DNA from: Oscillospiraceae bacterium
GTDB lineage: Bacteria; Bacillota; Clostridia; Oscillospirales; Oscillospiraceae
Length of the DNA stretch: 64,000 bases
Direction: 5' to 3'
Assembly (NCBI GenBank): GCA_015067435.1
Contig: SVMM01000012.1
Location: 1-64,000 of the forward strand
The position numbers were made by a program, and so were the translations under genes. Within the stretch, counting starts at the first letter, position 1; each line of letters starts with the position of its first letter. The notes under the pieces are model-generated. The model ran no database searches, had not been told where the DNA came from, and saw nothing but the letters and a program-made list of their open reading frames with translations. This document shows positions 24,990 through 47,042 of the stretch, one piece after another.

Positions 24990-26165
24990 TTACGCGCTCT
25001 TATCCTCCACGCTCCCCGGAATGATGCCGGAGATCACGCGCGCCGCTTCGAGCTTGCGCTCCATCTGCGGATGGCAGTAGGTGCGCTCCAGAAAGGACGT
25101 GTCCCCGTGACCGGCGAGATCGGCGACCGTCTGTTTATCCACGCCGCCGTGGAGCAGGGTGGTCATATACAGGTGCCGGAGCGTGTGGAGATGGTATTCC
25201 TCGCTGAAACCGTGGCGGTCGTAGAACTTCCGCAGGTGCTTCGTGAACGTGTCGGGATGAATGAGCCGCCCGTGCTCGTCGGTGAAAAGATACTCGCTGA
25301 ACGGATAGCGGTTGCGCTCGGCCTCGCGGTTCTTGTGGATGAAGAACGCGCAGAGCAGCAGCGACATACCCTCGTCGAGAGCGATGACGCGGGCGCGCCC
25401 GTTCTTCGTCGTGCCCTCGACCACGCCGATGCCCGCGACGCTGCTGCGGGAGCGGCTGACGATCATCGACAGCTCGGCGACGCTCTCAAACGGGAAGTCG
25501 GACCACTTGAGCGCGCAAAGCTCGCCGCGGCGACAGCCCGTGCAGATCGCCAGCAGATAGAAGACCCTGTAATGCGGAGGTTCCTCCATGAGCGCCCGCA
25601 GGAAACGCGTTACCTCGTCGGGATCGGGAACGAACTGCTCCCGCGCCTTCGTGTCGGGCAGGTCGATCATGCGCGCGGGGTTCTTCTGGATGATCTCGTT
25701 GCGCTTCGCGTCGGAGAGCACGGCGGAAACAGCGGTGAGGTACTTCTGCACGGTCGCCTCCTGGACGGGCTTGCCGTGATGCGTCCGCTTCCGCAGCTCA
25801 ATGAGCATATTCTCCAGCGCGATGGGACGCAGCTTCGAGAGCGGGATCGAGCCGATGTACCGGAACGTGACCTCCAGCATCCGCGCGTACATCGCCAACG
25901 TGCTGGGCGCGTAATTTGCCTGCCGCTTGAGCCAGCTCCGGGCGAAATCCTCGAACGGTGTATCGGCGTCCTCGCCGAAGCCGTTCTTCACCAGCCGCTC
26001 GAAGTCCTCCGCCTCGTGCGCGACGTACTGTGCGATGGAGCGCGGGTGGACGCTCTCGGGGACGTGGATGGTTTTGGCGCGGGAGATCTTTTTGCCGTTC
26101 GCGCGGTACCCGTTGCTGACGGTGATCTTGTATTTGCGGGAATTGATTTTCTTGATGCTTGCCAT
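24990..26165 (-). CDS. Tyrosine recombinase / integrase
   Basis: A 391-residue integrase. The arm-type start is MASIKKINSRKYKITVSNGY, followed by a core-binding domain (FEDFARSWLKRQANY) and the catalytic domain with Arg in CTGCRRGELCALKW, His-x-x-Arg in HTLRHLYMTTLL, His in GHGDTSFLERTY and nucleophile Tyr in the same segment. AAAGGAG precedes ATG 26165. It is a diverged relative of the integrase at 4728-5903, with equal length and the same strand. Neighbours on both sides are broken genes, so its host element has decayed. Confidence 0.92.
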   Translation of the reverse strand: MASIKKINSRKYKITVSNGYRANGKKISRAKTIHVPESVHPRSIAQYVAHEAEDFERLVKNGFGEDADTPFEDFARSWLKRQANYAPSTLAMYARMLEVTFRYIGSIPLSKLRPIALENMLIELRKRTHHGKPVQEATVQKYLTAVSAVLSDAKRNEIIQKNPARMIDLPDTKAREQFVPDPDEVTRFLRALMEEPPHYRVFYLLAICTGCRRGELCALKWSDFPFESVAELSMIVSRSRSSVAGIGVVEGTTKNGRARVIALDEGMSLLLCAFFIHKNREAERNRYPFSEYLFTDEHGRLIHPDTFTKHLRKFYDRHGFSEEYHLHTLRHLYMTTLLHGGVDKQTVADLAGHGDTSFLERTYCHPQMERKLEAARVISGIIPGSVEDKSA

Positions 26166-26209
26166 ATCAAACTCCTTTGCATTAAAATTCGGGATATGAG
26201 CAGACCTTG

Positions 26210-26520
26210 TCACATGGACATGCTCATGCCGAAGCCGTGGTACTCCTCGAATTCTTCCTCTTCGGCAAGCCGCTGCTGCTCTTCCTCCTCGGCGCGAAGG
26301 CGCAGCTCTTCTTCCTCCGCCATTCGCTGCCTTTGCTCTTCCGCCTGCCGTCGTTCCTGCTCTTCGGCCTGACACTGCCGTTGCCGAAGCGCTCGGCGAT
26401 CAGGTCGGCGAGCTGCTGGTTGCCGCCGGAGTAGGAACCGCGCTCACGCATCAGCTCGACGAGCGCGCGCATCTCCGCCGGCATGAGAACCGTCGGTTCC
26501 TTCAGCGAGTCTTTCAGCAC
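26210..26520 (-). pseudogene. Frameshifted C-terminal fragment of a coiled-coil protein
   Basis: One minus-strand frame reads MPAEMRALVELMRERGSYSGG and LADLIAERFG; a single-base shift near 26390 leads into a long Glu/Gln/Arg repeat (AEEQERRQAEEQRQRMAEEE) ending EEYHGFGMSMSM. Together they look like the tail of one mobile-element protein of unknown type, upstream of the integrase on the same strand. Confidence 0.5.
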
Positions 26521-27655: not shown

Positions 27656-30600
27656 ATGAAAAAGACACGTTTTCTCGCGCTGCTTTTATGCTTTGTCCTC
27701 GCGCTCGGCTTCCTGCCGCCGCATGCGCGGGCGGCGGACGACGTCGTTACCTTTGAGGCGGTGAAAACCACCGGGGACAGCCACGTCCAATTTACCGTGA
27801 CGATAACGGCGGTCGTCAACCGGACCGCAAAAAAGGCGGACGTCACCTTTACCCGCAGCAATTTTGCCTTCAAGGGCAAGGAGGACAAGGAATACCTGAA
27901 GGAGGAGTACCCTGACTCCTACAAGGCGTATCTTGCGTTCGGCTCTCAGAATTACGGGCACCTGACCGCCGATGTGGTGGAGGATAAGCTGGACTACGAT
28001 CAGGGCAACGTGAACTTCCGGCTGGAAAACTTTGTCTGGGACACCGCAAAGTTCCAATTGGAAAATCCCTTCGCCCCGAACGGATTTGTCGGACGGTTCA
28101 TCGTCATCAACAAATGGGAAAAGGTGACCGTCGGCGGACTCGGCAACGGTCATGTCGGCTTGGGCGAATCCGACGAGTACGGCTCCGCGCAATACTCCTT
28201 CAAGCGTGTCGAGAGCGCTCCGAGCGCGCCGCAGGGCAGGGAATACACGATCAAGCGCGACAATTTCAGCTTTCCCAACGCGAAAAGCTCCTTTGTATCC
28301 ACGTCCGCGCGGCCCCGCATCTTCGGCGGCAATTATTTTGAACCCGGCACCTACGGCGCGATGCTCGACGGCACCGCCTACAATAGCCTGACAGGCAGCG
28401 GCAAGGCGAGCCAGATCGCGGCGGTCAATGCGTTTCTGAGTCAGGGCTGGCGCGGCTCCTGCCTCGGCATGTCCGTTATGAGCGGCCTCCTCTTTGAGGA
28501 ACAGATCGCGCTGGACCGCTTCGGCAGCGTGTCTCAGGCGTTCGATCTGACCGCGCCCGTCAGCAACGAGTCGCTGATGCGCACGATCACATACTACCAG
28601 ATCGCGGACAATGAAACCCGGTACAAGGAATCCGAGCTTTCCGATCTGAGCGAGCAGGTGGCGCTAAAGCTCGTCAAGTCCCTGCAGGACGACCCGCAGA
28701 GCCCCGTGGTCGTCGGCTTCCGGCTTACCAGAGTCAGCGGCAGGGCGGAAGAACTCGTCTTGCGCGGTCACGCCGTGCTCGCGTTCAAGGTGGAGCAAAA
28801 GAACTCCGGGTACGACGTGAGCGTTTACGACCCAAACTATCCCAACGAGGCGCGGCACCTCTACATCGACGATATGCGCGAGGTCTCGTTCCCGGACTAC
28901 GCGAACCCCTATCTGCTGCGCGCCGATAAGGCGGAGGCCTTATTCAACGCCAATCTCTATTATCCCGCGCCCGCTTCGGGCGAGGCGGTCATCCACACAA
29001 ACGGAGACTTGGACGTCGAGGTCGCCGGCAGGAGCGCGTCGATCCGCGGCGAGCAGAAAACAGGCGACCTTCCCGTCGAGACGGGGGGAGAGTCCGGCGG
29101 CGGCGAGACCGTGATCTATGTTCCCGTACAAAGCGGGCAGTCCATCCGCGTGCGCTGCTCCGGCGGCACGAACGCGAGCGTGCAGACCGCCGATACCTTC
29201 GCGCTCATTACCGGCGGCGCGACCGAAGTGACGGTCAACGCCGACGGCAGCGTAACCGCCAAGACGAACGGCACGGCGGGCTCGCTCGCCGTCGCGTCGG
29301 ACAAGACAAGCGGCAATCTCTTCGGCACGACCGTCGAGACCAAGGCTCCCGAGGTCACGGTCACGCCGACGGGCAGCGGCGCGAACGTCACGACGAACGG
29401 CGGCACGGCGGATATCACCGTTTCGGGCAAGGACAACAGCGTCAAGTTTGAGAATGTCGATACCTCGAAGGGCGTGGACGTCAAGAACAGCGGCAACGAC
29501 TCCACGGTTTCCTCCGACGGACAGGAGATCGCCAAGGGCACCGCGAGCAGCAGCGGCGGCACGGCGCAGCCCGCGCAGCCGACGCAGCCCGCCGCCGACA
29601 AGCGGCAGATATCCAACGACGCGACACAGAAGGCAAGCGGCAACTCCTCGCAGATCGTGGATAATCGCAAAAACAGCGGCGGCACGATCGAGACCTTCCA
29701 CCGCAGACGCAGCGGCGCCAGATACAGCAGCTGGGCGGAGCAGGAGCTGGCGCTCGCGGACAACATGAACATCATTCCCGACGCGCTGATGACCAAGCTG
29801 ACCGGCAACATCACACGCAAGGAATTCGCCCAGCTCGTCTACAACACGGTGAAAGCCGCGACCGGCATGAGCGACGCGGACATGGCGAAGTACGCTGCGA
29901 AGCCCGGCAACGCTTACGACAGCCAGTACGCCGATCCTGCCGTCGCGTTCGCCTACGGCGTCGGCATCGTGAGCGGCTATGAGGATGGCTCGTTCCGCCC
30001 CGAGAACACGATCACGCGCGAGCAGGCGGCGAAGATGCTCGTCGTCATGGCGGAGCTGCTGGGCAAGATCACGAGCGAATCAGGCGCGAAGAAGTTTAAC
30101 GACGCGCCGAACAACTGGGCGCAGACGTATATCAATAAGATCAGCTCCGTCACGTCCCCCTACAGCGGCTCCCGCGTCATGGGCGGCGACGACAAGGGCA
30201 ACTTCTCCCCGACGGGGACGTTTACGACGGAGCAGGCGGTCGCGACGATGCTGCGCATGTTCGAGAGTGTCGTCGGTGAGAAGTCCGGCTACAGCGGCGG
30301 CGTCATCCAGTCGACGACACCGACAACCCCGACCACTCCGACCACACCGACGACCCCGACGCAGACAGGCACGACCGTGCCGACGGTCGCGGACAACGAC
30401 ATGACCGGCTTCGTGCCGAAGGATTGGAGCTGGGCCGCCGAGGGCGAGGGCTACGGGCGCAAATTCTTTACCTCCGGTAAGTACGTTCGCGACGACGGGC
30501 GCGCCGTGCTCTACATCGACAGCGGCGACAGCTACGACGGCTTTTCCTACCAGCTCTTCGTCATGGCGGGCGGCGCGAAGCAGGAGAATTACCAGGCATA

Positions 30601-30808
30601 TGACTTTAGCGGCGGCACGTCCTATTGCTGGGCGAGCAACAGCAGCGAGAGCAAGGCGGGTGACTCGAGCAACGGCTTGTTCTTCCACAGCCTCGGCAAC
30701 GGTTGCCTGATCCTCACAACGGACTGGCTCGACGAGATGTATCTTGCCTACGACCTCAGCTCCGGCGAGCCCGGGGACATCTTCTACCTCGTGCGCGAGA
30801 AGAAGTGA
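27656..30808 (+). CDS. Large secreted papain-like/SLH surface protein, paralog 1
   Basis: 1050 residues. Signal peptide 1-26 ends PPHARAAD. Residues 27-195 are a divergent beta-rich region. Residues 196-440 hold a papain-like core with GSCLGMSVMSGLLFEE (Cys269), RGHAVLAFKVE (His372) and YDVSVYDPN (Asp392/Asn394). Residues 445-640 are a Gly/Thr/Ser-rich beta region (TVNADGSVTAKTNGT). SLH-like sequence spans 700-870 (AFAYGVGIVSGYEDGSFRP). A Thr-Pro linker lies at 887-905 and a C-terminal domain at 913-1050 ends VREKK. ATG 27656 follows GGAGGAG. It is probably a wall-attached peptidase or acyltransferase; activity is inferred. Confidence 0.82.
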   Translation: MKKTRFLALLLCFVLALGFLPPHARAADDVVTFEAVKTTGDSHVQFTVTITAVVNRTAKKADVTFTRSNFAFKGKEDKEYLKEEYPDSYKAYLAFGSQNYGHLTADVVEDKLDYDQGNVNFRLENFVWDTAKFQLENPFAPNGFVGRFIVINKWEKVTVGGLGNGHVGLGESDEYGSAQYSFKRVESAPSAPQGREYTIKRDNFSFPNAKSSFVSTSARPRIFGGNYFEPGTYGAMLDGTAYNSLTGSGKASQIAAVNAFLSQGWRGSCLGMSVMSGLLFEEQIALDRFGSVSQAFDLTAPVSNESLMRTITYYQIADNETRYKESELSDLSEQVALKLVKSLQDDPQSPVVVGFRLTRVSGRAEELVLRGHAVLAFKVEQKNSGYDVSVYDPNYPNEARHLYIDDMREVSFPDYANPYLLRADKAEALFNANLYYPAPASGEAVIHTNGDLDVEVAGRSASIRGEQKTGDLPVETGGESGGGETVIYVPVQSGQSIRVRCSGGTNASVQTADTFALITGGATEVTVNADGSVTAKTNGTAGSLAVASDKTSGNLFGTTVETKAPEVTVTPTGSGANVTTNGGTADITVSGKDNSVKFENVDTSKGVDVKNSGNDSTVSSDGQEIAKGTASSSGGTAQPAQPTQPAADKRQISNDATQKASGNSSQIVDNRKNSGGTIETFHRRRSGARYSSWAEQELALADNMNIIPDALMTKLTGNITRKEFAQLVYNTVKAATGMSDADMAKYAAKPGNAYDSQYADPAVAFAYGVGIVSGYEDGSFRPENTITREQAAKMLVVMAELLGKITSESGAKKFNDAPNNWAQTYINKISSVTSPYSGSRVMGGDDKGNFSPTGTFTTEQAVATMLRMFESVVGEKSGYSGGVIQSTTPTTPTTPTTPTTPTQTGTTVPTVADNDMTGFVPKDWSWAAEGEGYGRKFFTSGKYVRDDGRAVLYIDSGDSYDGFSYQLFVMAGGAKQENYQAYDFSGGTSYCWASNSSESKAGDSSNGLFFHSLGNGCLILTTDWLDEMYLAYDLSSGEPGDIFYLVREKK

Positions 30809-30825
30809 GAAGGGAGGAGATCGCA

Positions 30826-31152
30826 ATGTATCTTTCCACAACGGACAGCATCGTGGGGCACAGGATCGTCCGAACGGTCGGCCCCGTCTGGGGCATCGGC
30901 GACGCCTATCATGACTCCGGCTATTATAAGAACAGCGACGGAAGCTCTTACCACAGAGACCGGTACAGCGCTATGGCGGAAGCGAACATGAGCATAAAGG
31001 AGGCGATGGAATCCCTTCTCGAATCCGTGCGGGAGGCGGGCGCCAACGGCGTGATCAACCTGACGCAGACTGCGCTGACGACGGGAAATACCGGATATGG
31101 AATACTGCAGTCCGTTTACATTCTGATGGGCACCGCCGTGGTGGTGGAGTAA
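30826..31152 (+). CDS. YbjQ-family (UPF0145) putative metal-binding protein
   Basis: A 108-residue protein of the YbjQ/heavy-metal-binding fold: MYLSTTDSIVGHRIV and TVGPVWGI near the start, an amphipathic helix SIKEAMESLLESVREAGANG, and the closing strand YILMGTAVVVE. It lacks a signal peptide. It starts 17 bases after paralog 1 behind GGGAGGAG and is followed by a second copy. YbjQ proteins form pentamers; their biochemical role is not settled. Confidence 0.82.
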   Translation: MYLSTTDSIVGHRIVRTVGPVWGIGDAYHDSGYYKNSDGSSYHRDRYSAMAEANMSIKEAMESLLESVREAGANGVINLTQTALTTGNTGYGILQSVYILMGTAVVVE

Positions 31153-31168
31153 AAAGGAGGAAAGCGGC

Positions 31169-31453
31169 ATGTATCTTTCAACGACCGAAAACATCCCGGG
31201 GCACCGCATCGTTCAGGTGGGCGGCCCGATCTGGGGCGTGGGCGCGTACAATGCCCGCGAAAAGCAGGCAACGACCACCCTGATGTACAGAGCCATTGAG
31301 CAGGCGGCGGATTCCCTGTGCGATTCGCTCAAGAAGAGCGGCTTCAACGGCGCGATCGGGCTGACGCAGATATCCGGGCTTGCCAACAGCGTCAACGGAT
31401 ATGCATATGACGGCTATTACGTGCTGATGGGCACCGCCGTGATGGTGGAATAA
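31169..31453 (+). CDS. YbjQ-family protein, second copy
   Basis: 94 residues, starting MYLSTTENIPGHRIVQ and ending YYVLMGTAVMVE, clearly paralogous to the preceding gene but lacking its Tyr/Ser insertion after WGIGD. AAAGGAGG precedes the ATG. Two adjacent copies could form a mixed oligomer. Both sit in the surface-protein array without a visible metal operon. Confidence 0.82.
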   Translation: MYLSTTENIPGHRIVQVGGPIWGVGAYNAREKQATTTLMYRAIEQAADSLCDSLKKSGFNGAIGLTQISGLANSVNGYAYDGYYVLMGTAVMVE

Positions 31454-31469
31454 AGGAGGAGGAAACGAC

Positions 31470-32039
31470 ATGGGCTTATTCTTTCAAAACGAACCCGCGT
31501 CCCCCGCGCCGCAGAGCGCGCCGAAGCCCGCCGCCCCGGGCGCGGGCAAGCAGCAGGCCGCGCCGCGGCCCGCATCCGCTCCCGCCCCCGCGGTGAAGAG
31601 CGAGCCAAAGCCGTCGAAGCCGCAGGTGGCGGCGGACTCCCTTGCCATCAAGAAGCTGTGGGTCAGCGGAGTGATCCAGAACGGGATATTCTTCCATCTG
31701 ACCCTGATCGCCGACGTGCTGCCGCCCGCCAACTTTACGCTGAACTGCGACGTCGAGATCACGCACATCGGCCTGTTCAACAAGGAATCGACCGTCCTGC
31801 GCACGAACGGGCCCAAGCCGCACAACCTCGCCGTGGTCCGTCGGTCGGACGGCAGCGGAAAGCCCAAGGCAAAGCGCCTCGAGGACGGGACGTATGAGAT
31901 CGAGTTCTCTCTCGAATACCTCGGCGCCTCCGGCGGGATCAACGGGAACATCAAGCGCGGCACGCACCGCCTGAGCATCCAGATCACCGGGGACGCGCTC
32001 AAGGAACCGTTCATCCACATCGACGAGTTCAAGGTCTGA
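31470..32039 (+). CDS. MGLFFQNE-tagged protein with C-terminal beta domain
   Basis: 189 residues. Residues 1-8 are MGLFFQNE, identical to the next protein. Residues 9-55 form a Pro/Ala/Lys linker and 56-189 a beta-rich domain (LWVSGVIQNGIFFHLTLIADV to FIHIDEFKV). The C-terminal domain is of the same kind as those ending the proteins at 35999 and 42789. There is no Sec signal, so the common tag may mark a shared destination or partner. No known family recognised. Confidence 0.75.
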   Translation: MGLFFQNEPASPAPQSAPKPAAPGAGKQQAAPRPASAPAPAVKSEPKPSKPQVAADSLAIKKLWVSGVIQNGIFFHLTLIADVLPPANFTLNCDVEITHIGLFNKESTVLRTNGPKPHNLAVVRRSDGSGKPKAKRLEDGTYEIEFSLEYLGASGGINGNIKRGTHRLSIQITGDALKEPFIHIDEFKV

Positions 32040-32060
32040 CGCCGCAAGGGAGAAAATGGT

Positions 32061-32678
32061 ATGGGCTTATTCTTTCAGAACGAGACCGGCAATCCGCCGC
32101 CGAAACCCGCTCCCGCACCACCGCCCGCCCCTGCGCCGCAGAGCGCGAAAAAGCCGTGGGAGCCGTCGAGCGCCTTCGTACCCTATGACCAATACGTCAG
32201 GAGCCTCGGCGCCAACCCGGACATTGTGGGGCTTACCGTGCGCGACGCGAGCTTTGACCGCCTGACGCGGCCCGACGGCGAGGGGCATTATCTGCGTGTG
32301 TATCTTAGATGCACGGACAGCAGGAAACCGCCGGAGGATTTTGAAAACGTGCTGGTGCAGCTGACATTGCTCCGCTTCCTTCGCGACGACGTTTCGGAGG
32401 ACGAGTATTGGGAGAGAATGCGGAAGTACGGCATTGGGAGCGGTTACGGCACGGAGGATTACGAGGAGCTGGACACCGCCGTCCGGCTGACGACGATGCA
32501 CGTCAACCAACACTACGGGATGTCAAATGAAGGGGGCGTCTGGCACTTTCAGGCGGCGATGAACGTCACGCCGGACAAGGTGGATTGGGTCAGGGACGGC
32601 ATTTATATCGTCGGACTGGACGTCGGCGGGGCAAAGCTGTCCACGGACGCGAGAATACAGGCGTATCCGTTCCCGTAG
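32061..32678 (+). CDS. MGLFFQNE-tagged protein with FxPYxxYV module
   Basis: 205 residues. The MGLFFQNE tag (1-8) and Pro-rich linker (9-33) precede a module starting SSAFVPYDQYVRSLGANPD and ending DGIYIVGLDVGGAKLSTDA. The same module occurs twice in the 749-residue protein at 42789 (LFTPYSSYVKTMGANPD; TFVPFEKYVEKYHADPS). It pairs with the preceding tagged gene. Function unknown; modular shuffling is evident. Confidence 0.75.
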   Translation: MGLFFQNETGNPPPKPAPAPPPAPAPQSAKKPWEPSSAFVPYDQYVRSLGANPDIVGLTVRDASFDRLTRPDGEGHYLRVYLRCTDSRKPPEDFENVLVQLTLLRFLRDDVSEDEYWERMRKYGIGSGYGTEDYEELDTAVRLTTMHVNQHYGMSNEGGVWHFQAAMNVTPDKVDWVRDGIYIVGLDVGGAKLSTDARIQAYPFP

Positions 32679-32682
32679 ATAT

Positions 32683-32775
32683 GATCCCGTTCCCGGCCAT
32701 TACAACGCAAAGCTCAACATCGAAACGGCTGAATATCCGCGTAAAGGGCGTGTGCTGTTCAATCGCTTTCAGTGA
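32683..32775 (+). pseudogene. 30-codon remnant of a beta-domain C-terminus
   Basis: A start-less frame reads PGHYNAKLNIETAEYPRKGR then VLFNRFQ and a stop. It corresponds to PGYYNVRFSIETAEYLRKGH and VLFNRFHVDKLE at the end of the 42789 protein. It lies directly before paralog 2, showing that a full gene of that type once preceded it and was deleted. Confidence 0.75.
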
Positions 32776-32793
32776 ACGGAAAGGAATACGACC

Positions 32794-35700
32794 ATGAAAA
32801 AGACACGTTTTCTCGCGTTGCTAGTATGCCTTGTCCTCGCGCTCGGCTTCCTGCCACCCCGCGCGCGGGCAGCGGACGAGGTGCTCTATCTGCAGTGGGA
32901 TTACAAATTGTCCGTGACGAATCTGTTCAAGCTGCACCCGATCCATCTCGACCTTGTGCTGAACCTCACCACCGGAAAGGCGACCCTGGATTTTAAGCGC
33001 CTGGAGGAACCCCAGTACAGCGGCTATATCCAGGAAAAGGAGAAAGAAAAGGAATACACCAGGAAGTACAAGGAGAATATGTCCGGCCGCGTGACCTACG
33101 ACATCGTGCAGGTGGATCTCAAACAGGGCGATCCCCGGCTGCCCGCCTGCCTGCGGTACGACGCCACGATGAAGGACGGCGTGAAGTGGCTTTTGACCAA
33201 CGCCTCCGGGGCGGAGTCGGTCATCTGGGACATCGCGAACAATACCGAACACACGCTGCTGTGCCCTTATGAGATCTGGCTCTCCCCGTACCGGGACGAT
33301 CCAAACAGCAACTTCAACGGGCAGTTCCACAGCCGCAAGGATATCACCGACCCCGAGGACAGCCAATATATCGCCGGCAACAGCTATTTCAAGCTTGCCG
33401 ACGGCGCGCCGCCGTCCGCGCCTGCGACGCGGGAATACGCCATCAAGCGCGACAATTTCAGCTTCGACAACGACGACCCCAGCTTTTTCAAAGACCGATC
33501 GGAAGCCCAACCGACGATCGTCGCGGGCCCCACCATCTGGTTTTACGGCACCTACGGCTATCTGATCGACGATTCGGCGTTCAAGGCGATCATGGCGGGG
33601 CGCACACAGAGCCAGAAGGCGGAGCTGATTGCAAAGCTGGACGGCAAGTTTGAGGGCGCCTGCTACGGCATGTCCGTCACGAGCGGTCTCCTGTTTGAGG
33701 AGCGCATTGCGCTCAATCAGTTCGGCACCGGGGCGGACGCGTTCAGCCTGAAAGCGCCCTGGGAGAACCCGGCGCTGGCGCGGACGCTGGCTTTCTATCA
33801 GGTCTGCGGAAACTACGATATTCTCGGCTATGAGAAGCGGCACCGCGGCGAACTCGCGGACAGCCGGAGCACGGCGCTGCGCATCGTCAAGTCCCTGCAA
33901 AGCGAGCCGGAGCATCCCGTGGTCGTCGGCTTCTCCGCCTCGGAAGGCAGCACCAGATATGGCCACGCGGTGCTTGCCTTCAAGGTGGAGGAAACAAGCG
34001 GAACTTACAAATACGACGTGAGCGTTTACGACCCGAACGAGCCCGAAAAAGCGTGTCACATTTATATAGCCGAAAACGGCGACGCCTCGTTCCCCTCCCA
34101 CGACAACCCCTATTTCAGGCTTGCCGACAAGGCGAGCGTCCTGTATGACGCGACGCTTTTCTATCCCGCCGTCGCCAAAAACGAGGTGGATATTCGCACG
34201 AACGAGGGCGTGACGGTCGAGACGAACGGCAAGAGCGCGACCGTGGACAGCGGCAAGGTCACGGGTGATCTCGATGTCACTGCGTTCAAACCGGAGGCCG
34301 GAAGCGACGAGACGGTCATCATCGTCCCCACCGAGGCAAACCAGCCCGTCCGCGTCCGCAGGCTGCACCCCAATAACGGCGGCTCGGCGAGCGTGCAGAC
34401 GAGCGATACCTTTGCGCTCATCTCCGGCGGCGCGAACGAAGTGACCGTCAACCCTGACGGTTCCGTCACCGCCAAGACGAACGGCACGGAGGGCGCGCTC
34501 GCCGTCGCCTCCGACAAGACGAAAGGCGACCTCTTCGGCACGACGGTCGAGACGAAAGCGGGCGAGGTCACGGTCACGCCGACCGCGAGCGGCGCGAGCG
34601 TCAGGACGAACGGCGGCACGGCGGACGTCACCGTTTCCGGTGAGAGGAACAGCGTGACGTTCGAGGACGTCGACACCTCCAAGGGCGTGGATATCAAGTC
34701 GAGCGGCAATTCGACCACGCTTTCCTCGGATGGGCAGGAGATCGCCAAGGGCACGGCGAACAGCAGCGGCGGCACGACCGAGGCGGCAAAGCCCGCGCAG
34801 CCGACCGCCGACAAGCAGCAGATCTCCAACAACGCGACGCAGAAAGCGGGCGGCAACTCCACGCAGATCGTGGACAAGCGCAGAAACGGCGGCAGTGGCG
34901 CGAGCGGCTTCCGCAGCCGTCACGGGAACGTCAAATACAGCACGTGGGCGGAGCAGGAGATCATCATCGCGGACGATTTCGGCATCATTCCCTCCGCGCT
35001 TTTGAATAAGCTCACCGGCAGCATTACCCGCAAGGAATTCGCCCAGCTCGTCTACAACACGGTCAAGGCCGCGACGGGCATGAGCGACGCTGACATGGCG
35101 AAGTACGCCGCGAAACCGGGCAACGCCTATGCCAGCCAGTACAGCGATCCCGCCGTGGCGTTCGCCTACGGCGTCGGGATCGTGGGCGGCTTTGAGGACG
35201 GCTCGTTCCGCCCGGACAACACCATCACGCGCGAGCAGGCGGCGAAGATGCTCGTCACGATGGCGGAGCTGCTGGGCAAGATGACGAGCGAATCGGGCGC
35301 GAAATCCTTCCGCGACGCGCCGAACAACTGGGCGCAAACCTACATCAATAAGATCAGCTCCGTCACCTCGCCCTACAGCGGCGCGCGCGTGATGGGCGGC
35401 GACGACAAGGGCAACTTCTCCCCGACGGGGACGTTTACGACTGAGCAGGCAATAGCCACGATGCTGCGCATGTTTGAGAGCGTGGTGGGCGAAAAGTCCG
35501 GCTACTCCGGCGGCGTGATCGCTTCGTCCGCACCCGCGACCCCGACGCAGACGGATACGACCGTGCCGACGGTCGCGGACAACGACCAGACCGGCTATAC
35601 GCCGAAGGATTGGAGCTGGACCGCCGAGGGCGAGGGCTACGGGCGGAAGTATTTCACTTCCGGCAAGTATGTCCGCAGGGACGGCCTCGCCGTGATATAC

Positions 35701-35985
35701 ATTGAGAGCAGCGACAGCCCCGACGGCTTTTCCTACACGCTCTTTGTGCCGGCAAGCGGCGCGCGGCAGAGCAATTATGAATCGCACGATCAGTACGGCA
35801 ACTCTTTTGCTTGGGCAGCGGTGAACGAATGGAACGAATACCATGCCAATGACAGGGGAAACGGCCTGATCTTTGACAGTATAGGCGACGGCAGGCTTGA
35901 GATCGTGAGCGACTGGATCGACGAGATGTATCTGCAATACGAAGCGCCGGACGGCACCTACTACCTCGTGCGCGAGAAGAAGTAA
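32794..35985 (+). CDS. Large secreted papain-like/SLH surface protein, paralog 2
   Basis: 1063 residues with the same plan as paralog 1: signal peptide 1-26 (PPRARAAD), divergent region 27-215, papain-like core with GACYGMSVTSGLLFEE (Cys290), YGHAVLAFKVE (His391) and YDVSVYDPN (Asp413/Asn415), beta region about 460-660, SLH segment about 715-885, a much shorter linker, and a C-terminal domain ending VREKK. The region after residue 216 is strongly similar to paralog 1 while the first 190 mature residues are not. ATG 32794 follows GGAAAGGAA. Confidence 0.82.
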   Translation: MKKTRFLALLVCLVLALGFLPPRARAADEVLYLQWDYKLSVTNLFKLHPIHLDLVLNLTTGKATLDFKRLEEPQYSGYIQEKEKEKEYTRKYKENMSGRVTYDIVQVDLKQGDPRLPACLRYDATMKDGVKWLLTNASGAESVIWDIANNTEHTLLCPYEIWLSPYRDDPNSNFNGQFHSRKDITDPEDSQYIAGNSYFKLADGAPPSAPATREYAIKRDNFSFDNDDPSFFKDRSEAQPTIVAGPTIWFYGTYGYLIDDSAFKAIMAGRTQSQKAELIAKLDGKFEGACYGMSVTSGLLFEERIALNQFGTGADAFSLKAPWENPALARTLAFYQVCGNYDILGYEKRHRGELADSRSTALRIVKSLQSEPEHPVVVGFSASEGSTRYGHAVLAFKVEETSGTYKYDVSVYDPNEPEKACHIYIAENGDASFPSHDNPYFRLADKASVLYDATLFYPAVAKNEVDIRTNEGVTVETNGKSATVDSGKVTGDLDVTAFKPEAGSDETVIIVPTEANQPVRVRRLHPNNGGSASVQTSDTFALISGGANEVTVNPDGSVTAKTNGTEGALAVASDKTKGDLFGTTVETKAGEVTVTPTASGASVRTNGGTADVTVSGERNSVTFEDVDTSKGVDIKSSGNSTTLSSDGQEIAKGTANSSGGTTEAAKPAQPTADKQQISNNATQKAGGNSTQIVDKRRNGGSGASGFRSRHGNVKYSTWAEQEIIIADDFGIIPSALLNKLTGSITRKEFAQLVYNTVKAATGMSDADMAKYAAKPGNAYASQYSDPAVAFAYGVGIVGGFEDGSFRPDNTITREQAAKMLVTMAELLGKMTSESGAKSFRDAPNNWAQTYINKISSVTSPYSGARVMGGDDKGNFSPTGTFTTEQAIATMLRMFESVVGEKSGYSGGVIASSAPATPTQTDTTVPTVADNDQTGYTPKDWSWTAEGEGYGRKYFTSGKYVRRDGLAVIYIESSDSPDGFSYTLFVPASGARQSNYESHDQYGNSFAWAAVNEWNEYHANDRGNGLIFDSIGDGRLEIVSDWIDEMYLQYEAPDGTYYLVREKK

Positions 35986-35998
35986 AGGAGAGTGCCAT

Positions 35999-37552
35999 AT
36001 GTCAGATTACACCGATTTTACCTACCTCGACTACCACAACAGCGACTCAGGGCAGCGGCGCGTCGATTCCGACGCCATCGGCCGCGCTTTTTCACAGGCG
36101 GGCGCGAGTTATTACGGCGACGGCAGCGAGTTCATCGTCGGCTACGACGCGAACGGCGGCGCGATGATCGACTCTGACGCCGTGCGCGCCGCCGCGCGCC
36201 GCAAGGCGGAGGAGGCGGCCTCGGCGGAGCGCGCGGAGGACGCGTTCATGCGCATGTATGTCAAGCAGCTCTACCAGCAGAACGCGCACACCTATCTCTA
36301 TCACGGCAGGGATATCATCTGGTATCGGCTGAACGGGAAGATCCTCGGGCACAATCTGCTCCACAGGGACGAAAACTGCCCGTATCGGTACAACTCGGTC
36401 AAGCTCGGACCGTTTCTGAGCTATCAGGAGGGCATGGTCCGGCTTCACGACTGCCCGGAAATGGAGCACACCACGCTTTGCCCGTACTGCCTGCGCCTGC
36501 GCGACAAGGAGAACGCGGAGACCACCGCCATGATGGACGCCATCCTCGCCTCACTGCAAAGCGGCGCGTGGCAGAAGGAGTATTATACGCTCGACCACCC
36601 CGCGGAGCAGGCCGCGCCGGTGCAGAAGACGGTCGAGGTGACGTGGAGCGGCGTGAGCGGAAAGGTGAGCCTGCCGCGGGAGCACAGCCTGAAGATACTT
36701 GACTGCTCGGTCACCCTCGAGCCGGAGTGCATCCGCTGCGAGCTGGGCGTCGTTTCCCCGCTTCCGTTCGCGCCGGATTCGGTGATCCGGATCGCGCACG
36801 ATCTGCGCGTCAACTATGCAGACGGAGGCAAGGAGCTTGCGGTGTATCACAAGGACGACGACATCGGCCGCGCCAAGCCCCTGCCTTGGCGGGAGTATGA
36901 AGGCGAGGGGTACGGCTACATTCTTCGCATCGACCACAAAAGGTTCGACGATAAGAAGTGGGACTTTCCGCGCAGCTATGCGCCGGAGAAATTCTCCGTT
37001 TCCTTCGCAACGCTTGACAAGATCTTCGAAGACGGCGGCTACAGCGCGCGCCCGAGAACCGTTTTCCCGATGAAGGGGGGCGCCCCGGTGATCGTCCGGG
37101 CAAAATCGGAGCCCGTCCGCGCGGAAGGCCCCGTGGGCAACGAGAGCATTCCCGCGGGTAGCATCCGGCTACTGGACGTAAAGCAGGCCCTCATGGATCA
37201 CGGCAGGCTGGTCCTGGTACTGAACGTTCGATCCAAGGTGCGCCTCGCCACAAGGCAGGGACGCGCGCAGGGGATCAAACTGAGCGGAGAGGTCGAGATC
37301 TTCCGCAAGGGCCTTTTGGGCAAGAACTCCCTCGTCAACTGGCGCGGCACGACGCGCCTTGATCCGGATTTCGAGCGAGGGGACAGCGACACGGCGTTTC
37401 CGTTCCGCTACGAAGCCCTGCTCTTTGAGGACGACTGGATGCAGAAAACGCCGGACGAGGGCTACCATCAGTATCGGGTGAAGCTGTCGGGCGGCTGCAT
37501 CGACCCCGCCGGCGCGGAATGCGACGGAAAGATCTACATCCACGTAGAGTAA
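35999..37552 (+). CDS. MSDYTDF-tagged protein with His/Cys metal module and two beta domains
   Basis: 517 residues. Residues 1-80 (MSDYTDFTYLDY; GSEFIVGYDANGGAM; RRKAEEAAS) are nearly identical to the start of the 42789 protein. Residues 115-170 hold His122, Cys127, Cys152 and CPYC (161-164), a treble-clef-like metal site reminiscent of Ada-type zinc modules. Two beta domains follow (about 225-350 and 390-517). No signal peptide. It starts 13 bases after paralog 2. Function unknown. Confidence 0.75.
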   Translation: MSDYTDFTYLDYHNSDSGQRRVDSDAIGRAFSQAGASYYGDGSEFIVGYDANGGAMIDSDAVRAAARRKAEEAASAERAEDAFMRMYVKQLYQQNAHTYLYHGRDIIWYRLNGKILGHNLLHRDENCPYRYNSVKLGPFLSYQEGMVRLHDCPEMEHTTLCPYCLRLRDKENAETTAMMDAILASLQSGAWQKEYYTLDHPAEQAAPVQKTVEVTWSGVSGKVSLPREHSLKILDCSVTLEPECIRCELGVVSPLPFAPDSVIRIAHDLRVNYADGGKELAVYHKDDDIGRAKPLPWREYEGEGYGYILRIDHKRFDDKKWDFPRSYAPEKFSVSFATLDKIFEDGGYSARPRTVFPMKGGAPVIVRAKSEPVRAEGPVGNESIPAGSIRLLDVKQALMDHGRLVLVLNVRSKVRLATRQGRAQGIKLSGEVEIFRKGLLGKNSLVNWRGTTRLDPDFERGDSDTAFPFRYEALLFEDDWMQKTPDEGYHQYRVKLSGGCIDPAGAECDGKIYIHVE

Positions 37553-37576
37553 TCGGTCAGGGAAGGGAGATCCACC

Positions 37577-40500
37577 ATGAAAAAGACACGTTTTCTCGCG
37601 CTGTTCCTATGCCTTGTCCTCGCGCTCGGCTTCCTGCCGCCGAAGGCGCGGGCGGCGGGCAGTATCCGCTTTGAGGCGGAGGAACTGGACGCGCCCGGCC
37701 CGATCTGGACCTACACCCGCATCCGCGTCTCCGTTGACACCTCCACCATGACGGCGCAGGCGTCCTTCCGGCGCTATAAGGATGAAACGGACTGGGACTA
37801 TATTCAGGAGAATACGCCCAAGCTCGATGCGGACTGCCATACCATCTGCCACAACACCTATGGGCAGTGTTATGCCAAAGCCGAACCCGTCGGCAATAAG
37901 GGCAACGCGTTCCGGCTGACCAACCTCGTGTGGCAGGGTGATCCGTACATCTTTGATGGCGGCGAGGTCTTCAGCATATATGTCAACGCCACCGAACTGA
38001 CGTTTGAAAGCGGCTCTGTCACCGTTAAGCCGTCCTCGCGGCTCGAACATCCGAAATCGTTTTGCGCGCTGGATTCATGGAGCCCGGGCGTCCGCTTCAA
38101 GCTGACCGATGATGACGTGGAGTACATCAACTACGAGCCTGTAAAGCCGGAGAAAAAGGAATACACGATGGGGCGGGACAACTTCGGCTTCGACAACGAA
38201 TGGGGCTCGTTCTTTGACCGTCCCACGCGCGCCGAGGCGACAGGGATCTACGCCGCGGGCACACGGTGGGGCTCCTACGGCAGCCTGCTCGACGACTCGT
38301 CGATCAAGGCGATGATCTCCGGACGCTCGTTCAGCCAGACCGCCGATATCATCAGCAGGCTGAACCGCCGCTGGCAGGGCTCCTGCTACGGCATGTCCAT
38401 CACGAGCGGCCTTCTGTTCGAGGAGAAGATCTCGCCCAGACAGTTCGCCGTCGGATCGGATCCCTACCATTTCACCGAACCCGCGAACAACGAGGAGCTG
38501 GCGCGGACGCTGACGTACTATCAGGTCATTATGAACTATGATTTCCTCGGCTATGAGAAGCGGCACAGCGCCGATCTTCCCGGCAGCCGGAGTACAGCGC
38601 TGAGCATCGCCAGATCGTTAAAGGAAGCCCCGGAGCATCCCGTGGTTGTCGGCTTCTCATTCTCGGAGGACGACGGGGCGCAGCGGGTGTGGCATGCCCA
38701 CGCGGTGCTCGCCTTCAAGGTGGAGGACGCGAGCGGGGGTTACAAATACGACGTCAGCGTTTACGACCCGAACGAGCCAAAGGAAGCGCGTCATATCTAT
38801 CTCACAGAGGACGGCGACGCATCCTTCGCGCCCTACAACACCCCGTATTTCAGGAATGCCGACAAGGCGAGGGATCTCTACGACGCCACGCTCAGCTATC
38901 CCGAGCTCCCGCCGGATGTTGCGATGGTCACCACGGACAGCGGCGCGGAGGTCGAGACCGACGGCAAGACCGCGACCGTCCGGAACGATCAGATCACAGG
39001 CAACCTTGACGTCACGGCGGAAAAGCTCGTCGGCGGAGACGAAACCGTGATTTATGTTCCCGTGACAATCGGGCAGGGCTTCAGCGTCCGCCTCCTCGGC
39101 GGCACGAGCGCGAGCGTGCAGACCGCCGACACCTTCGTGCTCATCACCGGCGGCGCGGAGGAAGTGATCCTCAACGCGGACGGCTCCGTCACCGCGAAGA
39201 CGAACGGCACGGAGGGCTCGCTTGCCGTCGCATCGGACAAGACGGGCGGCAGTCTCTTCGGCACGACCGTCGAGACCAAGGCGGGCGAGGTCACGATCAC
39301 GCCGACCAATAACGGCGCGAACGTCACGACAAATGGCGGCACGGCGGATATCACGGTCTCCGGCGGCGACAACAGCGTGACCTTTGAGAACGTGGATACG
39401 TCCAAGGGCGTGGACATCAGGAACAACGGCAACAGCTCAACGCTCACCTCTGACGGGCAGGAGATCGCCAAGGGCACGGCGAACGCGAACGGCGGCACGA
39501 CCGAGGCGGCGCAGCCGGCGCAGCCTGCCGCCGACAAGCAGCAGATCTCCGACGACGCGACGCAGAAGGCAAGCGGCAACTCCGCGCAGATCGTGGACAA
39601 ACGCAAGAGCGGCGGCGACACGACGGAGCAGTTCCGCTCGCGCCGCGGGAACAAGAAATACAGCACCTGGGCGGAGCAGGAATTGGCGCTCGCGGACGCG
39701 CTCGGCATCATCCCGGAGGCTCTGTTCAACAAGCTCACAGGCAACATCACGCGCCGCGAGTTCGCGCAGCTCGTCTACAACACGGTCAAGGCGGCGACGG
39801 GCATGAGCGACGCGGATATGGCGCAGTACGCAAAAAAGCCCGGAAACACCTTTGACAGCCAGTACAGCGATCCTGCGGTCGCCTTCGCCTACGGCGTCGG
39901 GATTGTCAGCGGCTATGAGGACGGCTCATTCCGTCCCGACAACACGATCACGCGCGAGCAGGCGGCAAAAATGCTCGTCGTGATGGCGGAGCTGCTGGGG
40001 AAGCTCACGAGCGAGTCGGGCGCGAAGAACTTCAACGACGCGCCGAACAACTGGGCGCAGACGTATATCAACAAGATAAGCTCCGTGACCTCCCCTTACA
40101 GCGGCGCGCGCGTGATGGGCGGCGACGACAAGGGCAATTTCTCCCCAACCGGCACGTTCACGACGGAACAGGCGGTCGCGACGATGCTCAGAATGTTCGA
40201 GAGCGTCGTGGGCGAGAAGTCTGGCTACTCGGGCGGCGTGATTCAGACGACCGCTCCCGCAACGACGCCGACCACGCCCACGCAAACGGGCGGTGTTTCC
40301 GTGCGCGCCGATAATGACATGACCGGCTATTCGCCGAAGGACTGGAGCTGGGTCGCCGAGGGTGAGGGCTATGGACTCGACCACTTCACCTCCGGCAAGT
40401 ACGTCCGCGCGGACGGGCGCGCCGTGCTTTACATCGAGAGCAGCGACAGCCCCGACGGCTTTTCCTATCAGCTCTTTGTCATGGCGAGCGGCGCACGGCA

Positions 40501-40717
40501 GAGCAACTATGAGGCGTACAACGACTTCTATCCCGACTCCTCCTACGCGTCGGCATATCGGAGCGAAACCTATGCCACGGACTACGGCAACTGGCTGTTC
40601 TTTGATTGCAGCAGCGACGGCGGCAGCATCGAAGTCGAAAGCGACTGGAACGACGAGATGTATCTGAAATATGACGCGCCGGACGGCACCTACTACCTCG
40701 TGCGCGAGAAGAAGTGA
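37577..40717 (+). CDS. Large secreted papain-like/SLH surface protein, paralog 3
   Basis: 1046 residues. Signal peptide 1-26 (PPKARAAG); divergent region 27-195 with several Cys (CHTICHNTYGQC); papain-like core with GSCYGMSITSGLLFEE (Cys270), HAHAVLAFKVE (His375) and YDVSVYDPN (Asp397/Asn399); beta region; SLH segment with EDGSFRPDNTITREQAAKM; short Thr-rich linker; C-terminal domain ending VREKK. The catalytic residues are kept in all three copies, arguing for activity. GGGAAGGGAG precedes ATG 37577, 24 bases after the tagged protein gene. Confidence 0.82.
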   Translation: MKKTRFLALFLCLVLALGFLPPKARAAGSIRFEAEELDAPGPIWTYTRIRVSVDTSTMTAQASFRRYKDETDWDYIQENTPKLDADCHTICHNTYGQCYAKAEPVGNKGNAFRLTNLVWQGDPYIFDGGEVFSIYVNATELTFESGSVTVKPSSRLEHPKSFCALDSWSPGVRFKLTDDDVEYINYEPVKPEKKEYTMGRDNFGFDNEWGSFFDRPTRAEATGIYAAGTRWGSYGSLLDDSSIKAMISGRSFSQTADIISRLNRRWQGSCYGMSITSGLLFEEKISPRQFAVGSDPYHFTEPANNEELARTLTYYQVIMNYDFLGYEKRHSADLPGSRSTALSIARSLKEAPEHPVVVGFSFSEDDGAQRVWHAHAVLAFKVEDASGGYKYDVSVYDPNEPKEARHIYLTEDGDASFAPYNTPYFRNADKARDLYDATLSYPELPPDVAMVTTDSGAEVETDGKTATVRNDQITGNLDVTAEKLVGGDETVIYVPVTIGQGFSVRLLGGTSASVQTADTFVLITGGAEEVILNADGSVTAKTNGTEGSLAVASDKTGGSLFGTTVETKAGEVTITPTNNGANVTTNGGTADITVSGGDNSVTFENVDTSKGVDIRNNGNSSTLTSDGQEIAKGTANANGGTTEAAQPAQPAADKQQISDDATQKASGNSAQIVDKRKSGGDTTEQFRSRRGNKKYSTWAEQELALADALGIIPEALFNKLTGNITRREFAQLVYNTVKAATGMSDADMAQYAKKPGNTFDSQYSDPAVAFAYGVGIVSGYEDGSFRPDNTITREQAAKMLVVMAELLGKLTSESGAKNFNDAPNNWAQTYINKISSVTSPYSGARVMGGDDKGNFSPTGTFTTEQAVATMLRMFESVVGEKSGYSGGVIQTTAPATTPTTPTQTGGVSVRADNDMTGYSPKDWSWVAEGEGYGLDHFTSGKYVRADGRAVLYIESSDSPDGFSYQLFVMASGARQSNYEAYNDFYPDSSYASAYRSETYATDYGNWLFFDCSSDGGSIEVESDWNDEMYLKYDAPDGTYYLVREKK

Positions 40718-40729
40718 GGAGATGAACCG

Positions 40730-41296
40730 ATGCGAAGGATGTATGTTCTTTTGAAGATTCTCTTCAAGCTTCTGATCATCCTGCTCAGCCTGTTTCTCAT
40801 TATGATATGGCTGATGGACATCAACCACATCGACAAATACGTTCCCGAATCGGTGTCGTTTGGCGCGGCATTTATGAACCTCATCAAGGTGGGGCGGGAG
40901 AGCATTCCGCTCAAAGACCTGCTCAAATACTACAAGGACAATATGCTGATCCTCGGTATCCACAAGGGCATCACAAACACCGCGTGCATCCTTTGCAGCC
41001 TGCCGCTGATCCCGCTTTTTTTCAAGGTCATATTTCAGGGGTGGGGCAGCGGGCTCGAGTATGTGGCGGCAAACCTCACCACAAGGTACGTCTACGTGGA
41101 CACGGGGAAATATGCGTTTACCCGCTTTAATGACGAGGTGCTCTTCTTCCCACTGTTCGATCTGGCGATCAGGCTGGCCCTGGTCTGGGGGCTGTTTGAG
41201 CTGTCGCCCTTTATTTTCCTGATCACGCTTGCGCTCAATATCCTGCAGCTCTTCTGGATCAGTCCCGGAGGAAGGGAGGCGTCCGCCCGTGCGTAA
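40730..41296 (+). CDS. Membrane protein of unknown function
   Basis: 188 residues with hydrophobic helices at about 8-28, 83-103 and 143-178 (probably two). The loop between helices 1 and 2 (about 30-80) is polar, with HIDKYVPESVSF. It starts 12 bases after paralog 3 and overlaps the lipoprotein gene by 8 bases. No family recognised. It may anchor or assist the paralog 3 group. Confidence 0.7.
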   Translation: MRRMYVLLKILFKLLIILLSLFLIMIWLMDINHIDKYVPESVSFGAAFMNLIKVGRESIPLKDLLKYYKDNMLILGIHKGITNTACILCSLPLIPLFFKVIFQGWGSGLEYVAANLTTRYVYVDTGKYAFTRFNDEVLFFPLFDLAIRLALVWGLFELSPFIFLITLALNILQLFWISPGGREASARA

Positions 41297-41801
41297 TAGA
41301 ATTATTGTGACCGCGCTGCTTCTCCTTATCTGCGCCGCGCTCCTTTCCGGCTGTCAGAGGAACGGCAATAAGGTGTTCGGCATTTCGAGGACGAAAGGCG
41401 AAGCCAATGGAGGGGAAAACATCTCCTGGAGCGCGCTTTCGGAAAAGTACGCCGCGCTCAAATATGTCCCCGCGCTCATGGACCCCGTGGATTTTTACAA
41501 GCCGAGCGGCTCCAATGGGGCAAAATTCGGATTTCTTGAGGTCGAGAAGCCCGAAGCCAGGTATGACGAGCTTCGCGAAACGCTTGAGGGCGCCGGGTTT
41601 GCTCTGGACGATGACTACGACGGCTTTTTAAGCAACCGAAACCTGAGCACCGAGGAGGAAAAAGCCGAAGCCGTCTGCAAGCGGTTTTATAAAGACGTCG
41701 GCGGCGCGGGCGATGGGATCAGGCGCGTCTACGTCTGCATCGAATACTTTGCACTCAAGTACAAGAACTCCCGCAACGTCTTTATCAGGATCTCGGGATA
41801 A
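41289..41801 (+). CDS. Small lipoprotein of unknown function
   Basis: 170 residues from GTG 41289, chosen because it opens RNRIIVTALLLLICAALLSGC, a clean lipoprotein signal with LLSGC lipobox (Cys22). The mature part is hydrophilic and has no recognised domain (KYAALKYVPALMDP; YVCIEYFALKYKNS). It is translationally overlapped with the membrane protein gene, so the two may form a unit. An immunity-type or chaperone role for the adjacent peptidase-like protein is conceivable but not shown. Confidence 0.7.
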   Translation: MRNRIIVTALLLLICAALLSGCQRNGNKVFGISRTKGEANGGENISWSALSEKYAALKYVPALMDPVDFYKPSGSNGAKFGFLEVEKPEARYDELRETLEGAGFALDDDYDGFLSNRNLSTEEEKAEAVCKRFYKDVGGAGDGIRRVYVCIEYFALKYKNSRNVFIRISG

Positions 41802-41833
41802 AGCAGATCTGCTTACGAAAGGCGGAGGATGCC

Positions 41834-42775
41834 ATGAAAGCCAAACGCGGCGAGGAGGCGCTCATGCGCCTGCTCGCGAAGAGCGTGTCGGCGCAGCGCG
41901 ATGCGGTTTACCTTGAACGGGACGGCGAGACCGTCTGGTTCCCGCATCGCGGCTCCGTTGCGGGTTTTCACCTGATCCACCGCAGCGGCGCGGACTGCCG
42001 CTACGCCTTCTTGCCCGAACGCGTCGGGCCGTTTCCGACCGATATAGAGGGGCTCGGAGAGCTTGGCGAGATCAGGGTGGAGCAGTATTATCCCTGCCCG
42101 TTCTGCTTCGCCGGGACGCCGATCATGGATGACCTGGAGCGCGGCGACGCCGAGCGCGTGCAGACGATCCGGCGTGTGCTGAGCGAGGGACGATGGCGTC
42201 GGGGGTACTATACGGGCGACGAGCCGAAGGCGTCGGCCCCGGCAAAAAAGGCAGCCCCGGCAAAGCCGACGGCTCCTCCGAAAAGAGTGGCTCCCGGGAA
42301 TAAGGCGATCCCCGTGTATAAGAAAGCTGAGACATCCGGATTTTACTACAACCGGCCCGAAAAGGGGTCTCTGGAGTTCAAACGCTATGAGGTGACGGTC
42401 AACCGCGACTCTGTCTGGCTGGAGTTGGATTTCGTCTCCCCGCTCCCCATACGGAAGGATTCCAGGCTGGACGTCACCACCAGCCTGAAAATCTCCTATG
42501 TCAAGAATGGGATCTTCGGGCCCAGGACGGTGACGGTGCTGCCCGGTGAGCGCACAACAAAGGACTCGAGGGTATTTCCGTGGGACAAGCATGAAGGAGA
42601 GGGATATGGCTACGGGGTGAGCCTGCATTATTACCGGTGGGAGATGAGCAAGCCCGGCGGCACCGGCCGTTATACCATTGACTTTACCCTTGACGACGAG
42701 AACTTCGACAGGCAAAGCGTTGAGAAGGTCAGAAGCCGTTTGGAGGGCGACCTGACCGTCAGGAAAAGGCGCTGA
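41834..42775 (+). CDS. Metal-module protein, N-terminally shortened paralog of the 42789 protein
   Basis: 313 residues. It begins within what corresponds to residue 75 of the 42789 protein (RGEEALMRLLAKSVSAQRDA). Metal module: His49, Cys55 (HRSGADCRYAF), then CPFC (88-91) in YYPCPFCFAGTPIMDD. An Ala/Pro/Lys linker at 135-165 leads to a beta domain (LEFKRYEVTVNRDSVWLELD). Its ribosome site AAAGGCGGAGGA equals the stretch coding RKAEE in the full-length paralogs, so a deletion has turned coding sequence into an initiation region. Confidence 0.75.
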   Translation: MKAKRGEEALMRLLAKSVSAQRDAVYLERDGETVWFPHRGSVAGFHLIHRSGADCRYAFLPERVGPFPTDIEGLGELGEIRVEQYYPCPFCFAGTPIMDDLERGDAERVQTIRRVLSEGRWRRGYYTGDEPKASAPAKKAAPAKPTAPPKRVAPGNKAIPVYKKAETSGFYYNRPEKGSLEFKRYEVTVNRDSVWLELDFVSPLPIRKDSRLDVTTSLKISYVKNGIFGPRTVTVLPGERTTKDSRVFPWDKHEGEGYGYGVSLHYYRWEMSKPGGTGRYTIDFTLDDENFDRQSVEKVRSRLEGDLTVRKRR

Positions 42776-42788
42776 GGAGGAAAGCGAC

Positions 42789-45038: not shown

Positions 45039-45123
45039 CGGTAAAACTTATCACATACGATTCGTTGACACGGCGGCGAGAGCGCCGTATGATATCATTA
45101 CAGAAGCGGAAAGGGGCATAGCG

Positions 45124-45846: not shown

Positions 45847-45915
45847 CGCGTGACGGCAGAGGGAACCGCAAACGGCGAGAACTGCTTCATTGAAAACGAC
45901 GCGGAGGATTGACGC

Positions 45916-47037: not shown

Positions 47038-47042
47038 CACGC

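Follow-up and report, generated by a model that had tools for sequence, protein, structure and literature searches.

The window, a stretch of 64,000 nucleotides (nt) from an Oscillospiraceae bacterium whose genome assembly (3.34 Mb, 36 contigs) is 96% complete, carries on its forward strand an array in which three large open frames encode proteins with one common layout. These are named here copies A, B and C, while L and G numbers refer to the loci and genomes of relatives. Each protein comprises a signal peptide (recognized by eye), an N-terminal domain of about 160-180 residues (N-domain), a core with Cys, His and Asp residues, a beta region, an SLH region and a C-terminal domain, and all three end in VREKK. 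In copy A (27656..30808, 1050 amino acids), the nucleotide limits derived from residue numbers are 27656-27733 for the signal peptide, about 27734-28230 for the N-domain, about 28231-28970 for the papain-like core (Cys269 at 28460-28462, His372 at 28769-28771, Asp392 at 28829-28831), 28967-29545 for the beta region, 29708-30310 for the SLH region and 30389-30805 for the C-terminal domain. Its start may be the ATG at 27656 or an upstream GTG at 27578, the shared signal peptide being obtained from the ATG. Copy B (32794..35985, 1063 amino acids) has its N-domain at about 32872-33408, its core at about 33409-34170 and, numbered from the alignment, Cys290 (33661-33663), His391 (33964-33966) and Asp413 (34030-34032). 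Copy C (37577..40717, 1046 amino acids) has its N-domain at about 37658-38137 and its core at 38138-38917, with Cys270 (38384-38386), His375 (38699-38701) and Asp397 (38765-38767). A preliminary description of this DNA had reported three such frames in tandem; the frames and their shared parts are indeed present, and the copies do stand in one row, but four small genes are interposed between A and B, and one, SDY1, between B and C. The source genome also contains a fourth intact copy, D, on contig C35, with neighbors of the same kinds as in the window array, and a broken fifth copy on contig C31.

Identity between copies differed markedly from one region to another. It was lowest in the N-domain (A/B 14%, A/C 19%, B/C 16%), higher in the core (45, 43, and 58% for the same pairs), the C-terminal domain (60, 62, and 68%) and the beta region (66, 69, and 67%), and highest in the SLH region (86, 89, and 88%). 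The strong divergence of the mature N-termini, and the diversification of this end which the preliminary description had put forward, were thus borne out by 14-19% identity, versus 43-58% in the core. In the beta region of copy A, DUF3060 gave a weak match, under the cut-off (E 3e-4).

The core of copies A, B and C gave no match above the curated cut-offs in Pfam or NCBIfam. Core profiles were made from 22 sequences (A2, from which a motif filter excluded locus L048) and from a wider chosen subset of 26 (A11); a further chosen subset, A3, comprises 13 sequences. Scanned singly, the members of A2 and A11 gave scattered weak family matches only, in one to three members each and with a best E of 7e-4. 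These were Peptidase_C78 (3/22 in A2, best E 9e-4; 1/26 in A11), the Pfam model of Peptidase_C39_2 (1/22 in A2, E 7e-4; none at E<=1 in copies A-C, and 0/26 listed at E<=1 in A11) and, each in one of the 22 A2 members, the NCBIfam models folB (0.0025), PatA (0.005) and a putative cysteine peptidase (0.0055). Lyase_8_C reached E 0.048 in copy A, under the cut-off, and none of the 26 A11 core sequences matched PHROGs at E 0.01. The absence of a nameable family with this layout, remarked upon earlier, holds for the libraries searched (Pfam, NCBIfam, PHROGs, and PDB sequences), in which none is catalogued. Likewise, no description of this core family was found in the open-licence literature searched, and the available portion of a survey of 106 papain-like families contained nothing matching the present layout (PMC10318531).

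Core matches occurred in 12 genomes out of 300 from the family, counting that of the window, in 5 of 18 genus genomes (in G300 only at E 4e-4) and, with the A2 profile, in 2 of 398 phylum genomes, one of them being the window's own. A pattern scan of genome contigs gave 57 matches, 32 of which encode core relatives, in Oscillospiraceae, Lachnospiraceae, Rubrobacter, Planctomycetota, Ignavibacteria, a deltaproteobacterium, the archaeon Halovivax and others. The 64 pattern matches on viral contigs included no core relative; on plasmids, the window core had no match and the Limnoglobus core had two weak ones. The putative catalytic residues were retained in these relatives. Among 19 non-self matches in 11 family genomes, Cys was kept in 18, and His and Asp in all 19. 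GxCxG and a His were present in 32/32 contig-scan loci, where retention of Asp was preselected, as YDPN formed part of the scan pattern. One Asn, two Gly, Cys, His and Asp were invariant in A2 (22/22), and Cys, His, Asp and two Gly in A11 (26/26, Asp lying within the search pattern for most), where the Asn was conserved in 22 of 26. This conservation, like the architecture, is directly observed. A chance resemblance of the triad was ruled out, since the residues are retained across great evolutionary distance. The Cys/His/Asp core of the preliminary description withstood examination, in that the triad is kept in wider homologues and no family without enzymatic function was matched with confidence.

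The proteins that surround the core vary. In 10 scanned relatives, SLH, Listeria-Bacteroides repeats, cohesin or PKD accompany it in some and nothing known in two, and in Rubrobacter it fills nearly all of a short frame. An Oscillospiraceae genome from roe deer rumen (G276) has 8 core matches in 7 open frames of 951-3034 residues (L026, L038, L041, L043, L045-L048). A 2086-residue frame of this genome bears a cohesin domain and 11 Listeria-Bacteroides repeats, and L048 and L026 (G276:C81) are apparently two cores in a single 1695-residue frame, L048 coming first and the second, L026, being intact.

The core profiles were compared by hhalign with a C39_2 profile built from the Peptidase_C39_2 domains (PF13529) of relatives. 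A2 scored 77% (E 2e-5) and A11 56% (E 1e-4), in an alignment restricted to 36-44 columns of the His-Asp half, which leaves the Cys uncovered. By comparison, Peptidase_C1 scored 0.26-0.27%, the Cys regions being aligned with each other in one comparison, and Transglut_core 0.25-0.41%, with the Cys regions aligned with each other; the controls gave 0.06% (unrelated profile) and 0.5% (second control). Peptidase_C39_2 was thus the sole clear profile match of the three families compared. It shares with the core a His-strand-DP motif with a preceding Cys, and the order Cys, then His, then Asp-Pro is that of C39-like peptidases; it differs in having GCGPTA at the Cys, where the core has GxCxGM, and in that the similarity is limited to the His-Asp half. 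Placement of the core nearest to C39-like peptidases, among these three families, is accordingly supported but weak. The same fold and surface placement could also belong to a transferase that cross-links surface proteins in the manner of a transglutaminase or acyltransferase, as the papain-like superfamily is stated to take in transglutaminases and acetyltransferases in the available portion of PMC10318531. We consider this unlikely, in line with the wide margin by which C39_2 was preferred over Transglut_core.

The structure predicted for mature residues 1-689 of copy A, from a 19-sequence alignment, was poor (mean predicted local distance difference test score, pLDDT, 57.5; predicted template modeling score, pTM, 0.36). 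Within this low-confidence model, helix 243-254 begins at the Cys (mature 243, block pLDDT about 70), the His (346) lies inside strand 342-356 and the Asp (366) comes right after strand 359-365 (block pLDDT 56-75), so that the predicted triad shows an order like that of the papain-like superfamily, clan CA. The N-domain is modeled as beta strands first, plus two helices, and the beta region (417-602) as a series of short strands, this region including the best-scored blocks of the model.

Surface placement, as advanced in the preliminary description, is supported by a signal peptide accompanied by SLH above the cut-off. Pfam SLH indeed matched one stretch in each of A, B and C (45.7-50.6 bits, cut-off 20.8; E 2e-13, 6e-12, and 3e-13), and three SLH-like repeats per protein were recognized by eye, one of them above the Pfam cut-off. 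SLH anchoring requires polysaccharide pyruvyl transferase, and a gene of this family (PS_pyruv_trans) is present in the source genome. We infer from these features that copies A-C are anchored to the wall.

Despite their low identity, the N-domains can be linked to one another. BLASTP connected A with C (5e-4) and with the Lachnospiraceae copy L065 (4e-36), C with L065 (4e-9), B with D (2e-47) and B with L061 (3e-9), A and B giving just 0.03. Profiles of the A-type and B-type N-domains aligned over 77 columns (E 1.5e-4, probability 52%). As judged from these similarities, the N-domains are a single divergent family; three unrelated N-domains were rejected through the BLASTP links. The A-type N-domain is nearly fixed across genomes (100% identical to L060, 94% to L062, 98% to the G309 copy) and the C-type is 100% identical to that of L063, whereas in the B/D group B is 45% identical to D and 48 and 53% to two G309 relatives. 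The 94-100% identity of types A and C between genomes argues for the exchange of stable types. A fast-changing N-domain was rejected for these two types only, and the B/D group remains compatible with it. Among 300 family genomes, only that of the window matched the A-type profile; three further genomes in the genus (G301, G306 and G309) have this type as well.

In papain-like enzymes, propeptides directly precede the catalytic domain. The N-domain, directly ahead of the core, could be such an inhibitory propeptide, removed on activation, whose divergence reflects relaxed constraint, and its faster change than the core in the B/D group would suit this explanation. It nevertheless has a low probability in our view: the N-domain is more conserved than the SLH region of its own gene (A vs. 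L060, 100/86%; C vs. L063, 100/91%), and N-domains are combined with different core types, which a core-specific propeptide should not permit.

The history of N-domain and core is mosaic. In approximately unbiased (AU) tests, the core data rejected the N-domain tree (p 2.8e-4) and the N-domain data rejected the core tree (p 4e-10), the N set including three G309 fragments with some upstream translated bases and N-tree support within the B/D group being 20-45. Simple tandem duplication without exchange was rejected, as the N and core trees reject each other. Particular copies illustrate this. L061 and L063, both from G309, have identical cores (783 nt exact), N-domains at 18% and C-terminal parts that differ. 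L065 unites an A-like N-domain (39%; D 15%) with a D-like core (57%; A 45%), a combination also found in L066, and in the broken fifth copy an A/L065-like N fragment is joined to a B-like core (79%). At four-fold sites, C and L063 differ at 7/192 in N-domain plus core and at 43/116 across the linker and the SLH region (Fisher p 2e-14), and A and L060 at 11/192 and 21/105, respectively (p 3e-4). For L061 and L063, the core shows no difference (0/117), against 19/43 over the two terminal domains (p 4e-13); the linker shows none either (0/27), and the SLH region 22/102. Between genomes, positions 35750..38749, which cover the end of B, SDY1 and the signal peptide, N-domain and core of C, are 94-100% identical to contig C87 of G309 (250-nt bins), while 39000-40499 is at 84-88%, the last bin of C at 92% and the flanking gene (46000-46999) at 80-85%. 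Such a block beside an 80-85% flanking gene is the trace expected from cassette transfer between species. In G301, the response-regulator cluster described below (95.7%) begins no more than about 430 nt after copy A (92.9% DNA identity), the 14 kb corresponding to 30813-45065 being absent at that locus.

All the other genes of the array lie on the plus strand. After copy A come two YbjQ-like small genes (30826-31152, 23.7 bits for a cut-off of 23; 31169-31453, 18.7 bits, under it) and two small genes with a common MGLFFQNE start (31470-32039 and 32061-32678, no Pfam match), homologues of which were found downstream of copy D. Between the second of these and copy B, a short remnant like residues 715-745 of SDY2 (32683-32775), whose frame contains a stop, has the look of a scar left by recombination. 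SDY1 (35999..37552, 517 amino acids, start MSDYTDFTYLDY) has a homologue, 98.5% identical, upstream of the copy C relative in G309. On the 3' side of copy C, a membrane protein, a lipoprotein-like gene and an SDY-related gene (40730..42775), none with a Pfam match, precede the final gene, SDY2 (42789..45038, 749 amino acids), relatives of which occur in 3 of 18 genus genomes. The SDY/MGLFFQNE-type genes (31470-32678, 35999-37552, 41834-45038; L049, L050, L111) share their starts (MGLFFQNE, MSDYTDFTYLDY), Cys-rich motifs and repeated domains, without signal peptide (by eye) or Pfam match. Because intergenic gaps are short (<=32 nt, save about 115 nt ahead of copy B), the array may, from its coordinates, form a single operon.

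Downstream, 45118-51240 encodes an AraC-type response regulator, two solute-binding proteins and a histidine kinase, a cluster conserved next to copy A in G301. A protein with a UPF0167 domain (45916-47037; PF03691, E 1.5e-14) adjoins the array in G301 and G309 as well; this family takes in the E. coli colicin-tolerance protein CbrC. Directly upstream, a phage-type integrase lies on the minus strand (24990-26375), and in G301 the DNA ahead of copy A does not match that of the window.

Several copies, swapped parts and small genes recurring next to the copies could also suggest a polymorphic or contact-dependent antibacterial system, in which the N-domain picks the target cell, the core is a toxin and the small neighbors confer immunity. 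Papain-like domains, a C39-like clade included, are indeed known in polymorphic toxins and listed as toxin clades in the available portion of PMC3482391, and these systems resemble the array in their modular, exchanged domains. According to the same portion, however, their variable part is the C-terminal toxin domain, with immunity partners, neither of which was seen here (PMC3482391). In the present proteins, it is the N-terminus that varies, the catalytic-like part being central; the protein bears SLH, and several neighbors are related to one another. The recurring small genes belong to no known family, and PADLOC matched none of 10 proteins, which included A and C, B not being tested. Given the N-terminal place of the variable part, and since no family of toxins or immunity proteins turned up, the likeness to such systems drawn in the preliminary description is unsupported, and we regard this explanation as very improbable.

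Cwp84 of Clostridioides difficile is a secreted papain-like cysteine peptidase (C1A family), anchored to the wall by CWB2. It offers a likeness as such a wall-anchored enzyme of a clostridium, but the core described here has no Peptidase_C1 match. The gingipain Kgp of Porphyromonas gingivalis is unlike the present proteins in fold and anchoring. In the available portion of PMC5266723, its variants are described as a mosaic arising by domain rearrangement and genetic exchange, a single gene having two variants of the catalytic domain and three of the adhesin domain. As a surface proteinase with mosaic variants, it is, as far as that portion goes, the nearest analogue of the exchange seen here, although it concerns variants of one gene and not a multi-copy array with a swapped N-terminal domain (PMC5266723). 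Lastly, a module of papain-like type is also present in a rumen protein of Ruminococcus flavefaciens that is multi-modular and related to the cellulosome, according to the portion available (PMC3573020). This module was absent from the PDB sequence matches of the core.

On balance, we lean toward the view that copies A-C are C39-like cysteine enzymes, anchored by SLH and bearing exchangeable N-terminal domains, and that they belong to a papain-like family not yet catalogued. Their catalysis, the function of the N-domain and the selective purpose are inferred from the sequences, as follows. In the triad, the Cys would head a helix, the His would lie on a strand that follows and the Asp would end the strand after that, the conserved upstream Asn being a candidate oxyanion-hole residue. 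SLH repeats would retain the enzyme on the cell wall, with the beta region as a spacer, and the N-domain, ahead of the core, may recognize or gate the substrate. Homologous recombination in conserved stretches may maintain the scaffold while N-domain types swap between copies, and probably between species. One strain would then possess several surface enzymes that differ in specificity.

Several points weigh against this view, in addition to the poor model and the partial C39_2 alignment. PDB sequences gave no confident core match (E 0.4-1.1 only), the matches of copy A being to SLH. N-domains of the B/D group diverge more across genomes than the cores do, copy B and its closest G309 relative being 52% identical in the N-domain and 77% in the core. 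The relatives come mostly from metagenome assemblies, and five G309 contigs end within copies of this gene. Two contigs of G309 agree exactly over 783 nt, which may be an assembly artefact, as identity within one assembly can be; comparison of two independent assemblies is safer. The pyruvyl transferase family was also matched in 8 of 14 control genomes and, being so common, gives weak support for anchoring. Anchoring is not general in the family, because SLH is missing in three Lachnospiraceae copies (L065 and L066 by alignment, L082 by Pfam). Finally, no activity is known for any family member, and the L048 core has an Asp replacing the catalytic Cys. These last two points, together with the beta-rich surroundings in the model and the SLH repeats, fit a structural role, in which the core would be a papain-like fold that has lost catalysis and serves in structure or binding, the proteins being adhesins or S-layer components. 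The invariance of Cys, His, Asp and two Gly in A2 (with L048 left out) and A11 (with Asp mostly in the search pattern) speaks against such a role, to which we assign a small probability.

Returning to anchored enzymes with exchangeable N-domains, a bolder and more doubtful proposal may be ventured. This commensal gut clostridium might hold a recombining library of surface cysteine enzymes, whose N-terminal recognition cassettes are traded across copies and species, can move together with the adjacent SDY gene and retarget one scaffold without a new active site. If this is true, the question is raised of whether the N-domain sets the substrate, and domain exchange of a surface enzyme would be shown in gut bacteria that are not known as pathogens. 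A widespread, unnamed cysteine-enzyme family, with the readily recognized signature GxCxGM, HA/HQ and VYDPNxP, would then join the papain-like superfamily.

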